DNA of 64,000 nt, from NCBI RefSeq assembly GCF_000756305.1, contig NZ_JRFE01000019.1, forward strand, positions 168,830 to 232,829, given 5' to 3'. This DNA comes from Myxosarcina sp. GI1 (GTDB taxonomy: Bacteria; Cyanobacteriota; Cyanobacteriia; Cyanobacteriales; Xenococcaceae). The notes under the pieces were generated by a model that worked only from the letters and a program-made list of their open reading frames with translations, was not told the DNA's origin and ran no database searches. The position numbers and the translations under genes were made by a program. Positions 5,676-10,824 of this stretch are shown here, in pieces. Position 1 is the stretch's first letter. Every line of letters starts with the position of its first letter.

Positions 5676-6140
5676 TTATATCGCTTGAAGATAAGCCTTC
5701 TCTCCTCGTTCCTTATATAAGCTCTTTAGAGCGTCTATGAAATTGTTTAGGAGAGCAGGTTCTGTTTTCAAGTAAAGCGTTGCCTCACTAGCTGCTTTCA
5801 TGACCGAAAAATCTTTAAACTCCGATTGTTGTTTGCAAGTAATGTAGAGTTTACCTGGCTTTGCAAAATGAAGCCGTGCATGAAATGCTCCATTAGCATA
5901 CTCTAGTCCAAACTCCCCAAATCTAAGATCTAGTACCCCTCCGTAGACTTGGTCTTTAAATACATCGAGTTCCGTGATAACATTGGCAATTCTTGAGTAG
6001 CTAACGTATACTCGATTTGAGAATAACGAGTTACCATCTGAAACATCAATTTTTAGCTCGATAATATCATTATCAAACCAAATTTTAGTTAAGTGAATAC
6101 CTGACTTTATTGGATTATGGATTATATTTTCACTCCTCAC
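5676..6140 (-). CDS. Hypothetical protein overlapping the pseudokinase gene
   Basis: This is a 154-residue soluble protein with no signal peptide or membrane segment. It is predicted to be largely beta, with alternating hydrophobic residues (for example IIELKIDV, GVLDLRFG, ARLHFA), and ends with an alpha helix FIDALKSLYKERG. The order resembles small beta-rich proteins of the WapI/immunity type, but I cannot make a firm family call. The start is a GTG at 6138-6140, 11 bp inside the end of the upstream kinase-like gene, so the two are probably translated together. That overlap is the strongest hint to its role: a partner of the pseudokinase-TPR protein. Confidence 0.6.
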   Translation of the reverse strand: MRSENIIHNPIKSGIHLTKIWFDNDIIELKIDVSDGNSLFSNRVYVSYSRIANVITELDVFKDQVYGGVLDLRFGEFGLEYANGAFHARLHFAKPGKLYITCKQQSEFKDFSVMKAASEATLYLKTEPALLNNFIDALKSLYKERGEKAYLQAI

Positions 6141-9100
6141 TCATCCGACAACCGACTATGTTCATCGCCTGAGTTATAGGAGCAAAATCGGGAGCAAACT
6201 GACGGGACTTTCGATAGGTATCGCAGGCGGCATCGTAGTTTTGCTGCTCGGTCAAGATGGAACCTTTAGTCTGCCACAGTAAGGGGTTTTGAGGTTCGAG
6301 GTCCAAAGCGCGATCGATCGCGTTAATAGCTTTTTCTTGACGACCGACTGCCTGTAAAGCATTGGCAAAACCCACCCAGGTTTCACTGTCTTGAGGATTG
6401 AGTTGACTGGCTTTGGTAAAAGAAGCAACTGCCCGAGCGTATTGACCTGCCTGAATCAGTGCCAGACCGCGGTCGCGCCACAGTGCGGCATAATCGGGAT
6501 TTAGCTCGATTGCTCGCTCGTAAGCTGTAACTGCTGCTATGGGGCGTTCCAAGCCATCTTTGAGAATCGAACCGCGCATTTGCCATGGTCGGTCGGCTTG
6601 GGGACGAATTTCCGAGGCGCGATCCAATGCGGTTAAGGCTGCCCGATATTCACCTGCGGCTAGGAATGTTTTGGCTTTACCAATCCAGGCTAGATAAGAT
6701 TCGGGTGAGATGGCAGTTGCTTCTTCGTAAGCTGCTATTGCCTTACTCTGAATTTGTAAGGGGGAAGAAAAAGCTTTGTCGGTAGCAGCATTAGCAAACA
6801 AGTTTTGAGATTGAGTGATGCGTAACTGAGTCAAAAAATCGCCTTTTGCCAGCCATAGACTATAGTTGGCGGGGCTTTGTTCGACTAAATCCTGATAGGT
6901 GGCAATAACATCGCGGTAAGTGCGATCGGCTTCATCAAACCGACCGAGAGCTTGCAGGGCAAAAACCTTATCCTGCCATAGTTGGGGACTATTGGGTTCG
7001 ATGTTTCTAGCTCGATCTAATACCGCTAGCGCGTCATAATAGCGACCTAGTCTAATCAAAACTCTAGCGCGATCGCTTAAAAACTCGGCATTGAGGCGAT
7101 CGCCCTTCAACGCTGCTTCATGAAATGATAGAGCTTCTTCGTATCGCTGTAAATTTTCCAGGGTTTTACCTTTACTATTGAGGACGGCACGATCGCTTGG
7201 TTTTAGCTTTAGTGCGCGATTGTATGCTGCTAGAGCCTGGGGAAATTTTTCCAAACGATAGTAAACATCTGCTTGTTTTTGCCAGTTTTGAAAATCGTTA
7301 GCGTTTAATTCACCAGCGCGATCGTAAGCCGTTAGAGCGCGATTGAAGTATTTGAGGTTGTATAAAGCATCTCCTTTACCTTCCCAAGCTAAATAACTGT
7401 TTGGCTGTAGTTCTGTAGCTCGCGCAAAGGCGTTTAAAGCAATTTGAGGCTGTTGTGAAAGAAGCTGTCTGCCGCGATACCAATAATATGCTGGTCTGAG
7501 AAACGGAAAAGCAAATTCAATACTAGCCAGTAAGCTAACAATTCCTAAAGTTGCGATTAATATTTGACCTGGCTGTAACGACCATTTGGAGAAAACAAGT
7601 ACTAAATCGGAGCGCTCGAGTTTATTGCGTCGAAATTCTGAGGTTTCTTCAGAATGGACGCTGGAGCGTCCCGACGCGGACTGGAGTCCGCCGTCTTCGC
7701 TTGGCGAAGGCGAGTCGCTCCAGCGACTTTCGGAACGGCGAAGCTCTCCAGAGCTTGAGGCAGTAGTTTTACCAGTAAAGACTCGTTGAGATTTAACCTT
7801 TACTTTTACTTTACGCAGATCTGCAATTGCTTTTTCTACCGCTTGATAGCGTTTACCAACATCTGAAGCAGTCATTTTAGCGATTATTTTTGTCAGGCGG
7901 TTGCTGACTATTGCTTTTTGCCTCAGAAAGTTTGCTGTTTGCTCGTGCTTGAAATGTTTGGGTTCGATTCCCGTCAGAGCTTCAATAGCGATTATGCCTA
8001 AAGCATAAATATCGCTGCTTAAGGTTGCTCTGCCGGCAATTTGTTCTGGAGCAAAATATTCACTATAGTCAGTTTGGCGTTCGTCCGTGCTGCTCTGACA
8101 TGAAACTTGAATATCTTCTAAAATTCCCAGTCCCGTCAATACAACTCGCTGGCGATCGTCAATTAGTAAATTTTCTGGACTGATATAACGATGAATTATA
8201 CGTTGTTTGTGTACGAATGCTAATGCGGCGAGCGCGCTTTTAAGAAAATTTAATACCTCAGCTTCGGAAAAATTGCGTGCTGATAGTATTTGTCTGAGGC
8301 TTTTGCCCCCAACATAAGCCTTAACTAAGTAAAACTCACCATTTTGTTGAAAATGATCCCATAGCTGGGGTATTTGAGGACAATCATTGAGCTTTTCTAA
8401 AACTGCAAGCTGTGCGGTCAAACTCTGCTCGATTTTTTGCCAGCTTACAGCATCGCAACCGCTCAATTCTACTCGTTCGAGTATACAGGGAGACTGATAG
8501 GAGCGGCGTAAATTTTCGGCAAGATAACTATCGATTGCGCCTTTTTGCTGTAGATGTCTGATAATGCGATAGCGTCCGTCTATTACTCGGTCTACAAACA
8601 ATAAAGGCTTGAGATCGGCAAGAACTTCTAAAGCATTGTGATAGCGTTGGGTGTGGTTGGCAGCAGTCATTTTTTCAATAATTGCTACCAACCTCTCGCT
8701 GACCTGACAGCAGCGATACCAAACCGTGCTGGTTTGTTTTAAATTTCGCGGTAATAGTCCTGTCAAAGCATAAATAGCAGTTTTGCCCAATCCGTAAATA
8801 TCGCTGCTAAATCTTGGTTTTCCTATTTGTTGTTCTGGTGCTATATAACCATTATTGGCAGCATATACAGTTATTTTGCTCGAACCGCCGTTAGGGGAAG
8901 GGTTAAACGCGCTAAATTTGACTAGCGCGTAACTATTTAACTCTTGGCGTTCGACTAAGTTTGCGGGGACGATCGCCTGATGAATGAGGTTGTTTTTGTG
9001 AATTAAATCTAAAGTTTTAAGTACGTCGTGCAGTAGATGTATTGTTTGCGCTTCGTTAAAAGTGCGACCTTCTATTTTTTGCTTTAGTGTTTCACCATTG

Positions 9101-9453
9101 ATATATTCTCTAACTAAATAAATTTGCCCTTTGTCAATAAAAAAGTGTCTGTATTGAGGAACTTGCAGGCGATCGCTCAGTCTTTGAAAAACTTCTAGTT
9201 GTCGAACTAAGCAGGCTTTGACTTCGTCTTTAGATTCAGAACTATTCAAATCCAATCCAACTAATTGCTCGATAACACATCGCGCATCCCCCTCTAGTTT
9301 TAAATCTTTAGCCAGATAGATTTTGTCTGCTTTTTCTTTGCCCAACTGCCGTACAATTTGGTAGTGTCCGACAATTGCACCAGGAGAATAAATTTTATTA
9401 CTGCTAGAAATTGAAGCTGCCGAATCAGTCTGTTGGGGTTTGGGGTCTGGCAT
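6130..9453 (-). CDS. Twin pseudokinase - membrane segment - TPR protein
   Basis: This 1107-residue protein has two kinase-fold domains (about residues 28-285 and 293-548), a Ser-rich linker (567-605), one membrane segment (about 629-650) and about ten TPR repeats to the C-terminus. The domain order is that of cyanobacterial Ser/Thr kinases with TPRs, but both kinase domains lack the catalytic residues. Domain 1 has Glu62 for the ATP-binding lysine, HQA (158-160) for HRD and SAF for the DF of DFG. Domain 2 has Glu326 for the lysine, HRY (421-423) for HRD and TGLG for DFG. The APE and following SSDIYGLG or SSDIYALG segments remain. It is therefore likely a scaffold or sensor and not an enzyme. 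It shares an 11-bp overlap with the small gene downstream. Confidence 0.88.
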   Translation of the reverse strand: MPDPKPQQTDSAASISSSNKIYSPGAIVGHYQIVRQLGKEKADKIYLAKDLKLEGDARCVIEQLVGLDLNSSESKDEVKACLVRQLEVFQRLSDRLQVPQYRHFFIDKGQIYLVREYINGETLKQKIEGRTFNEAQTIHLLHDVLKTLDLIHKNNLIHQAIVPANLVERQELNSYALVKFSAFNPSPNGGSSKITVYAANNGYIAPEQQIGKPRFSSDIYGLGKTAIYALTGLLPRNLKQTSTVWYRCCQVSERLVAIIEKMTAANHTQRYHNALEVLADLKPLLFVDRVIDGRYRIIRHLQQKGAIDSYLAENLRRSYQSPCILERVELSGCDAVSWQKIEQSLTAQLAVLEKLNDCPQIPQLWDHFQQNGEFYLVKAYVGGKSLRQILSARNFSEAEVLNFLKSALAALAFVHKQRIIHRYISPENLLIDDRQRVVLTGLGILEDIQVSCQSSTDERQTDYSEYFAPEQIAGRATLSSDIYALGIIAIEALTGIEPKHFKHEQTANFLRQKAIVSNRLTKIIAKMTASDVGKRYQAVEKAIADLRKVKVKVKSQRVFTGKTTASSSGELRRSESRWSDSPSPSEDGGLQSASGRSSVHSEETSEFRRNKLERSDLVLVFSKWSLQPGQILIATLGIVSLLASIEFAFPFLRPAYYWYRGRQLLSQQPQIALNAFARATELQPNSYLAWEGKGDALYNLKYFNRALTAYDRAGELNANDFQNWQKQADVYYRLEKFPQALAAYNRALKLKPSDRAVLNSKGKTLENLQRYEEALSFHEAALKGDRLNAEFLSDRARVLIRLGRYYDALAVLDRARNIEPNSPQLWQDKVFALQALGRFDEADRTYRDVIATYQDLVEQSPANYSLWLAKGDFLTQLRITQSQNLFANAATDKAFSSPLQIQSKAIAAYEEATAISPESYLAWIGKAKTFLAAGEYRAALTALDRASEIRPQADRPWQMRGSILKDGLERPIAAVTAYERAIELNPDYAALWRDRGLALIQAGQYARAVASFTKASQLNPQDSETWVGFANALQAVGRQEKAINAIDRALDLEPQNPLLWQTKGSILTEQQNYDAACDTYRKSRQFAPDFAPITQAMNIVGCRMSEE
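7656..7757. repeat. Hairpin-rich repeat inserted in frame in the pseudokinase gene
   Basis: About 100 bp hold five small hairpins in a row: GACGCTGGAGCGTC, GCGGACTGGAGTCCGC, CTTCGCTTGGCGAAG, AGTCGCTCCAGCGACT and AAGCTCTCCAGAGCTT. Several share a GGA or TCC loop. The stretch is much more GC-rich than the gene around it. In the gene's frame it encodes the Ser/Arg-rich linker at residues 567-600 without a stop codon. It looks like a mobile interspersed repeat tolerated in a linker. Confidence 0.8.
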
Positions 9454-9578: not shown

Positions 9579-10748
9579 TTACGAACGCAGAGACGGCTTG
9601 AGATCGATTACCACAGCTCGATCGCTCTCTCTGGCAACTCTTACCAGCAATCCCGCTAACAGCAATGAAGCTACGACAGAGTTTATTCCGTAGCTAAAAA
9701 ACGGTAAGGGTAAACCCGTAGTTGGTAAAGTCCCCGTAGCTACACCAATATTTATTAGAGATTGTCCGACTAACAAGACCATTGAACCTATAGCGATCGC
9801 CTTGGGAATGGCTTGACGGCATTTAATTGCCACTCTTAAAGCCAGGGTTGCAAAACCTAAAAGCAAGATTAAAAATAATAGACAGCCAATAAAACCAAAT
9901 TCTTCAGCATAAACGGCAAAAATAAAGTCTGTCGAGCGAATTGGTAAATATGACAGTTTTTGTTGCGATAGTCCAAATCCCGCGCCACTAATTCCCCCTG
10001 AAGCGATCGCCAGTAAGCTTTGAATTAACTGATATCCTTTGCCGTGATAGTCTCGCCAGGGATCGAGAAAAAACACGATGCGATCGCGCTGATAGGAATT
10101 GATGGCAAGACTCATACTCGCGAGAGTCGAACCTACAATAGCAGAGCCAATTAGCTGCTGCCAGGGCAGGCAGGCAGATAGGGCAATCAGCCACAGGCTC
10201 AAACCGCACAAAGCAGCCGTACTCAAATTAGGCTGCTTTAAAATTCCCAGCAGCATGAGGGCAAAAACGATCGACCAGACTAGTTTTACTTTCGGTTTTA
10301 ATACCTGCCAACGTGAAAACAAATAGCTAGCCTGTAAAACTAAAAACGGTTTGATTAATTCCGAAGGCTGTAAAGAAAAAGGACCGATAGCAATCCAACG
10401 GCTCGCTCCCATAGTGGTTTTGCCCAAACCAGGAACTAAAGTTGCCAAAATTAACAGCAGCCAGATTAATACCATCCAAGGGGCAGACTTAAGAGTTTTT
10501 TTTAGTGACTGTCTGGATACTAAATTAAAACCTAAAATACCGAGCAAAACACCGATCAGCTGTTTTTTGAGAATATACAGTCCGTCGTTAAAAGTAACTA
10601 TTCCTTCGGCATAAGATGCAGATACCAAGGTAACTAATCCAATTAACAGCCAAATACAGGTCAACCAGTTTAATAATCGAGCCTCCCACGACCAAGATTT
10701 GACTTGAGGATCGACAAAGGGAATTAAATATCGTAGATATCGCCTCAC
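9579..10748 (-). CDS. ftsW: Peptidoglycan glycosyltransferase FtsW (SEDS family)
   Basis: This is a polytopic membrane protein of about 389 residues with some nine to ten hydrophobic segments. SEDS-family signatures are visible: GASRWIAIGPFSLQPSELIKP, the loop RDYHGKGYQLIQSLLAIASGG, the stretch DFIFAVYAEEFGFIG and the C-terminal GLPLPFFSYG. FtsW polymerises lipid II glycan strands at the division septum. It is assigned as FtsW and the copy at 53.4 kb as RodA, from QKLSYLPIRSTDFIF and overall likeness to cyanobacterial FtsW. I chose the GTG at 10746-10748, because the in-frame TTG at 10793 lies in the T-tract of the apc terminator. The start remains uncertain. It is downstream of apcC on the same strand. 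Confidence 0.88.
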   Translation of the reverse strand: MRRYLRYLIPFVDPQVKSWSWEARLLNWLTCIWLLIGLVTLVSASYAEGIVTFNDGLYILKKQLIGVLLGILGFNLVSRQSLKKTLKSAPWMVLIWLLLILATLVPGLGKTTMGASRWIAIGPFSLQPSELIKPFLVLQASYLFSRWQVLKPKVKLVWSIVFALMLLGILKQPNLSTAALCGLSLWLIALSACLPWQQLIGSAIVGSTLASMSLAINSYQRDRIVFFLDPWRDYHGKGYQLIQSLLAIASGGISGAGFGLSQQKLSYLPIRSTDFIFAVYAEEFGFIGCLLFLILLLGFATLALRVAIKCRQAIPKAIAIGSMVLLVGQSLINIGVATGTLPTTGLPLPFFSYGINSVVASLLLAGLLVRVARESDRAVVIDLKPSLRS

Positions 10749-10789
10749 GGTTTTAGTTATTAAATTGCTTACCCTATCAAAAGTAACAG

Positions 10790-10824
10790 ACAAAAAATAA
10801 AAAGAGGTCGCGATCGACCCCTTT
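10790..10824 (-). terminator. Intrinsic terminator of the apc operon
   Basis: Read on the minus strand, AAAGGGGTCG - ATCG - CGACCTCTTT forms a ten-base-pair stem (one G-U pair) and is followed by TTATTTTTTG. It lies 32 bp after the apcC stop codon and before ftsW, so it should separate the highly expressed apc transcript from ftsW. Confidence 0.8.

Follow-up and report, generated by a model that had tools for sequence, protein, structure and literature searches.

A predicted membrane-spanning tandem pseudokinase with TPR repeats in the cyanobacterium Myxosarcina sp. GI1

Introduction

The Hanks-type kinases PknB, StkP and Stk1 are built from a kinase fold in the N-terminal half, a single transmembrane (TM) helix and a C-terminal extracytoplasmic region. 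The protein described here follows the same plan, with kinase-fold matches at Z scores of about 26-28, one TM helix and a C-terminal region that is presumably extracytoplasmic. However, it carries two tandem non-catalytic domains, and TPRs take the place of the PASTA repeats. A second system of interest is YukC/EssB, a component of type VII secretion, in which a cytoplasmic N-terminal pseudokinase without ATP binding is followed by one TM helix and a helical extracytoplasmic C-terminal domain (PMC9600267). Judged by architecture, this is the closest working analogue of the protein studied here, although YukC/EssB has one kinase fold rather than two and no sequence link between them is claimed. 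The neighbouring genes that were read included carB-like, SEDS and phycobilisome-like genes and none of type VII secretion; with its two kinase domains and no type VII gene among these neighbours, the protein does not belong to YukC/EssB.

Bacterial pseudokinases are largely unstudied (PMC12599244). The same 2025 review describes CP1, a cyanobacterial pseudokinase family with mixed motif losses that is linked to COG3899 and lacks a TM helix. The present protein has both a TM helix and TPRs, and Pfam reports only kinase and TPR matches in it, which places it outside CP1. The pseudokinase-kinase tandem of JAK/TYK2 also contains two consecutive kinase folds, but the domains are arranged differently and JAKs retain one active domain; nothing beyond the fold is claimed. 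The text of the review of bacterial pseudokinase families (PMC12599244) makes no mention of tandem or TPR, and a 2025 review of cyanobacterial Ser/Thr phosphorylation (PMC11863333) none of TPR, tandem, inactive or fasciclin. No description of a TPR-linked tandem pseudokinase family was found in the open-licence papers searched, a prior description elsewhere being possible.

Architecture and predicted structure

The DNA analysed, referred to here as the window, is a stretch of 64,000 nt from Myxosarcina sp. GI1 (GCF_000756305.1, contig NZ_JRFE01000019.1, positions 168,830 to 232,829, forward strand). Its features of interest are collected in Table 1.

Table 1. Features of the locus, in positions within the 64,000-nt window
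Feature	Position	Strand	Residues or size	Remarks and basis
Small ORF	5676..6140	-	154 aa	GTG start; overlaps the tandem gene by 11 bp
Tandem-pseudokinase/TM/TPR protein, OG-A orthologue (predicted)	6130..9453	-	1107 aa	ATG start; stop-free inside
TPR-like helix pairs, about 12	6145..7506	-	aa 650-1103	Pfam, alignment, model
Single transmembrane helix	7507..7563	-	aa 631-649	Mean hydropathy 2.2; model helix 628-648
Disordered linker	7576..7788	-	aa 556-626	Alignment; pLDDT <50 at 553-627
Palindromic element in linker	7650..7765	+		Translated in frame; alignment with orthologues, genome search
D2, kinase-fold domain 2	7813..8577	-	aa 293-547	
D1, kinase-fold domain 1	8602..9366	-	aa 30-284	
FtsW/RodA-type SEDS gene	9579..10793	-		Directly upstream of the tandem gene

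Pfam recognized two Pkinase stretches (155 bits, against a cut-off of 31.7) and many TPRs, and the protein is a member of the PF00069 superfamily by both sequence and fold match. An AlphaFold2 model of the tandem, computed from 33 sequences, reached a pLDDT of 83 and a pTM of 0.78. In this model D1 (region 21-285) matched M. tuberculosis PknB with a Z of 25.9 over 244 residues, while D2 (region 286-553) matched S. aureus Stk1 with a Z of 27.8 over 250 residues. In the full-length model (pLDDT 79) the linker is disordered and is followed by the TM helix and by about 12 helix pairs, but the pTM of 0.45 leaves the relative placement of the domains uninterpreted. Similarly, the best Foldseek match spanning both domains was TYK2, and at a TM score of 0.35 and an rmsd of 19 a TYK2-like domain arrangement is not claimed. 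Searching a viral fold library returned mostly generic kinase and repeat matches, and a plasmid search with the protein gave TPR matches only.

Two features of the protein are private to it. Its linker exceeds in length that of every aligned orthologue and contains the palindromic element, which was not found in the 16 aligned orthologues from the host family and of which the genome has partial copies at two other places (87% over 60 bp). The second is a 22-residue insert in the TPR region. In the C-terminal repeats, C1077 and C1102 are conserved within the clade, which is compatible with an oxidising compartment.

Catalytic residues of the two kinase folds

A reading of the locus made from the DNA alone, without database searches (the sequence-only reading), had proposed that both kinase-fold domains lack the ATP-binding Lys, the catalytic Asp and the metal-binding Asp. 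Residue assignment by alignment to the 16 orthologues and to intact relatives bore this out, and did not locate the catalytic residues elsewhere in the sequence. In D1, E62 replaces the beta3 Lys, A160 (HQA 158-160) the HRD Asp and K179 (KFS 179-181) the DFG Asp; in D2 the corresponding residues are E326, Y423 (HRY 421-423) and G441 (GLG 441-443). The metal-Asp triplet had been placed correctly in D2, whereas in D1 it is KFS and not SAF 181-183, as had been thought. The glycine loops are also lost (LGKEKAD in D1, LQQKGAI in D2). The catalytic-loop Asn is retained in both domains (PANL in D1, PENL in D2), as are the APE and SDIYxLG motifs; the earlier view that this part remains and that the fold is kept agrees with the alignment, the AlphaFold2 models and their matches to PDB kinases. 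A further change that this reading overlooked affects the alpha-C Glu, which is Gln in both domains (Q85 and Q348) and is retained in the sister clade.

Neither D1 nor D2 has the beta3 Lys, alpha-C Glu, HRD Asp and DFG Asp of an active Hanks-type Ser/Thr kinase. If a pseudokinase is taken as a kinase fold lacking at least one of Lys, HRD Asp and DFG Asp, both domains qualify by sequence, all three being missing in each. Such losses are not chance, because 24 of the 30 Pkinase matches in the same genome carry an Asp in the HRD as well as the DFG position; the other six are the two window domains, D2 of the paralogue L002, and L207, L209 and L211. It is highly probable that the predicted pseudokinase domains carry out no phosphotransfer.

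Relatives and the order of loss

The protein belongs to OG-A, a cyanobacterial tandem-kinase TPR family defined in the present analysis, by its D1-D2-TM-TPR order, its full-length similarity and its placement in a tree of the TPR part. Sixteen other genomes of the host family encode full-length orthologues (about 1020-1070 aa), to which two more distant ones (L083 and L157) can be added; among the hosts are Pleurocapsales LEGE 10410, Waterburya agarophytonicola, Pleurocapsa CCALA 161 and a Myxosarcina MAG. Most genomes of the host family also encode a shorter paralogue of about 860 aa (group B), in which D1 is intact and D2 usually reads HGN or similar. Tandems of the B type with both domains intact were found in Hydrococcus (L155/L109), Gomphosphaeria (L150) and L153, which lie outside the host family, and in L154 and L156. 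The Hydrococcus and Gomphosphaeria proteins share the D1-D2-TM-TPR order with the window protein; in contrast to it, they have all catalytic residues and a shorter, different TPR part. One-domain kinase-TM-TPR proteins (group C, which combines one HxN kinase domain with the same TM-TPR module, and L145-L148 and L169-L171) are about 40-60% identical in that module. They differ from the window protein in having a single, mostly intact kinase domain, with an Asp-to-Asn change in group C.

Within group A, both domains are intact in L076 and L080, and in L077 and L082 the D2 HRD Asp is the sole loss. This Asp is also lost in most of the other orthologues from the host family, among them the genus-g2 clade, where the D1 Lys is Glu except in L079 (Lys) and L070 (Gln). 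The window-bearing clade, of which these g2 sequences are part, has Glu for the D1 Lys in 12 of its 14 rows. Among the relatives aligned, the window protein is alone in missing the Lys and the two Asps from D1 and D2 alike. The question raised by the sequence-only reading, whether homologues share the losses, is answered in part: most share some of them, two orthologues from the host family are fully intact and none shares all. A tree built from the TM/TPR part alone, and therefore independent of the kinase columns, placed the window protein as sister to 11 genus-g2 sequences (100/97), inside the 14-row clade (100/100). On this tree the minimum number of changes in HRD Asp state was five for D1 and three for D2, counts that are by themselves blind to gain versus loss. 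D1 and D2 are about 40-53% identical to each other where the tandem is intact, against about 32% in the degenerate clade. As read from these alignments, the loss of catalytic residues across the relatives is stepwise, and the window protein most likely had a catalytically active tandem Hanks-type Ser/Thr kinase as its ancestor.

Linkage to a fasciclin gene

In the five loci of host-family orthologues with an intact D1, a gene for a fasciclin (FAS1) protein lies between the SEDS gene and the tandem gene, divergent from the latter. FAS1 genes also adjoin the orthologues L143 and L144 and several one-domain kinase-TM-TPR proteins, among them those of group C. Three of the FAS1 proteins begin with stretches that, judged by eye, resemble signal peptides. 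A search started from the FAS1 side gave, at E <= 1e-28, 18 matches spread over 17 of the 391 genomes covered. A Hanks-kinase gene adjoins 17 of the 18, from at least four families, a count that carries no probability since the genomes are related. One of these loci (G393:C157) has the kinase and the TPR part as separate ORFs, and G429 alone has no such neighbour. Because one large genome search scored two candidates per genome, absence of group C from the other genomes is not claimed; for the window genome the scoring extended to every candidate. That genome contains only a weak FAS1 match, of 57.8 bits and on another contig, and no secreted FAS1 gene adjoins the window gene, which therefore does not form a FAS1-linked kinase-TPR locus. 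Since the FAS1 gene is missing there, the evidence for a partner comes from the relatives.

Proposed role

Taken together, we consider it fairly probable that the window protein is a membrane-spanning, non-catalytic tandem-pseudokinase receptor or scaffold. From the single TM helix, the kinase folds would lie in the cytoplasm and the TPR superhelix outside. The TPRs would bind an envelope partner, in the relatives probably the secreted FAS1 protein, and the kinase folds would relay the resulting state through docking, either to an active Hanks kinase (the paralogue L002, for example) or to another cytoplasmic protein; the identity of this dock is a guess. In the window lineage, from which the FAS1 gene is gone, the ligand would have changed or would come from another gene. 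The sequence-only reading had already joined the kinase folds through a membrane segment to about ten TPRs, a number that the model raises to about 12 helix pairs, and had suggested that the protein senses on one side and gathers partners on the other. This fits the one-TM topology but, like the scaffold role, is an inference.

In a variant of the scaffold model, which does not amount to a full alternative, an active kinase such as L002 would phosphorylate the kinase folds or the linker in trans and the protein would act as a phospho-switch. The paralogue L002 has the same architecture and a D1 that keeps K, HRD, N and DFG, and the linker is rich in Ser/Thr; however, most of this linker is the private repeat insert, and we regard the switch as unlikely. 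Extended to the whole order, the receptor model would describe a two-part envelope sensor, in which the extracytoplasmic TPR superhelix of kinase-TM-TPR receptors has a secreted FAS1 protein as its ligand, catalysis has been repeatedly discarded, mostly through an HRD Asp-to-Asn change, and signalling proceeds by conformation only. The window protein would then be an end point in which the two domains are fully dead and whose ligand gene is gone. We put this forward tentatively, as a possibility with the balance against it.

Selective constraint

The lack of catalytic residues could also be the mark of a decaying gene, whose FAS1 partner was lost, whose product was no longer needed and whose catalytic residues drifted away. 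Consistent with this are the long terminal branch of the window protein (0.74), its private palindromic and 22-residue TPR inserts, the missing FAS1 gene and the fact that a single strain has been seen. Against it, the 1107 codons contain no stop, while about 5% of single-base changes create one and about 17 would be expected at 0.1 neutral changes per site. Compared with its relatives, the window gene differs most at third codon positions and least at second ones, and it keeps 85% of otherwise-invariant columns in D1 and 82% in D2, nearly as many as in the TM/TPR part (88%). In close pairs of the degenerate clade, which includes the sister clade with a dead D1, dN/dS is low (0.11-0.25 in D1, 0.05-0.17 in D2 and 0.12-0.19 in TM/TPR), and it is 0.07-0.13 in pairs with an intact D1; the window gene's own value is unreliable because dS is saturated. 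As the relatives are under purifying selection and the core of the window ORF is kept, the gene is probably not broken, and decay appears improbable. A simple pseudogene was rejected on the stop-free frame and the kept core. Selection may have relaxed recently in the window lineage, given the one strain, the long branch and the two private insertions.

Neighbouring genes and residual activity

The sequence-only reading had correctly seen the 11-bp overlap with the small ORF and had named this gene as a possible partner. That proposal fails on synteny and distribution: the small ORF is absent beside all 16 orthologues from the host family, and one other homologue (48% identity, with a stop inside the match) exists in 27 genomes of that family. 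Its sparse distribution, together with a 56% match carried by a plasmid of Vibrio campbellii, suggests that it was probably acquired horizontally. In the relatives, the FAS1 protein is the better candidate partner, judging from gene linkage.

Wall synthesis in actinobacteria has links to PknB-type kinases and to the MviN pseudokinase, and the window protein might likewise regulate the FtsW/RodA-type SEDS protein encoded next to it. The SEDS gene is the nearest same-strand neighbour in 17 of 17 orthologue loci of the host family, window included; in the window, the 125-bp gap between the two genes holds no terminator-like site. However, the long orthologues in L143, L144 and f7/f17, which lie outside the family, have no SEDS neighbour, and in five genomes of the family the divergent FAS1 gene stands in between. 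With the adjacency confined to the family, inherited gene order suffices and explains it equally well, so that regulation of the SEDS protein seems decidedly improbable.

SelO, SidJ and ULK4 are pseudokinases that bind nucleotide or have non-canonical activity despite degraded motifs. That either persists in the window domains is very doubtful: the catalytic-loop Asn is retained, and ATP binding without the usual Lys has been predicted for some bacterial pseudokinases (PMC12599244), but neither domain has kept its Lys, alpha-C Glu, HRD Asp, DFG Asp or Gly loop, and the Lys-to-Glu change reverses the charge in beta3.

Implications

On the receptor or scaffold model, the linkage to FAS1 genes provides a concrete and testable candidate ligand for such receptors. 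In addition, a single family contains, in living species, intact, half-dead and fully dead tandems joined to the same membrane and TPR parts, and offers a natural series in which the function of a kinase fold after the loss of catalysis can be tested.

Features of the Tandem Gene and Its Neighborhood

The linker of the tandem protein, encoded at 6130-9453, contains a translated palindromic element, with a DNA fold z of -3.6, that was not found in the aligned family orthologues, and two further, partial copies are present in the same genome. The protein also carries 22 extra residues in its TPR region (aa ~881-903), an insertion found in 0/16 aligned family orthologues. In the Hyellaceae MAG CSU_1_1 (L163/L111), the orthologue is broken into three ORFs, which may represent an assembly error or true decay.

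Regarding the small ORF, to which neither Pfam nor NCBIfam assigned a family, its top outside match lies on a Vibrio campbellii plasmid, and it was likely acquired by horizontal transfer.

Related Kinase-Fold Proteins and FAS1 Neighbors

Group C proteins have one kinase-fold domain, with Asn replacing the HRD Asp, and share the TM-TPR module of the tandem proteins; at the relatives' loci L067 and L068, the group C gene lies two genes away from the tandem. Within the window genome, the L209 and L211 proteins, with a Glu close to the beta3 Lys position and a hydrophobic segment C-terminal to the kinase domain, look like two more pseudokinases, judging from their motifs. About nine very long open frames (~1900-3200 aa) with a kinase domain were also observed there.

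Across the order, a kinase-TM-TPR or Hanks-kinase gene adjoins a secreted FAS1 (fasciclin) gene in 17 of the 18 best FAS1 matches (the loci tabulated are examples, and further ones exist). The two products are a candidate ligand-receptor pair.

Coordinates of the features discussed
Feature	Location	Remarks
Small ORF	window 5676-6140	GTG start
Palindromic element	window 7650-7765	in frame
FAS1 gene	L076:11063-11629	predicted secreted; adjoins kinase gene
FAS1 gene	L143:9428-10003	predicted secreted; adjoins kinase gene
FAS1 gene	L067:11043-11747	predicted secreted; adjoins kinase gene
Group C members	L067:12142-14460, L158, L159, L160, L162	
Hanks-like putative pseudokinase	L209:805-2316	other contig; HLN with NFG
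Hanks-like putative pseudokinase	L211:655-2292	other contig; HQK with GFG
Very long kinase frames	L184, L189-L191, L193, L195, L196, L198, L199	HKD-type
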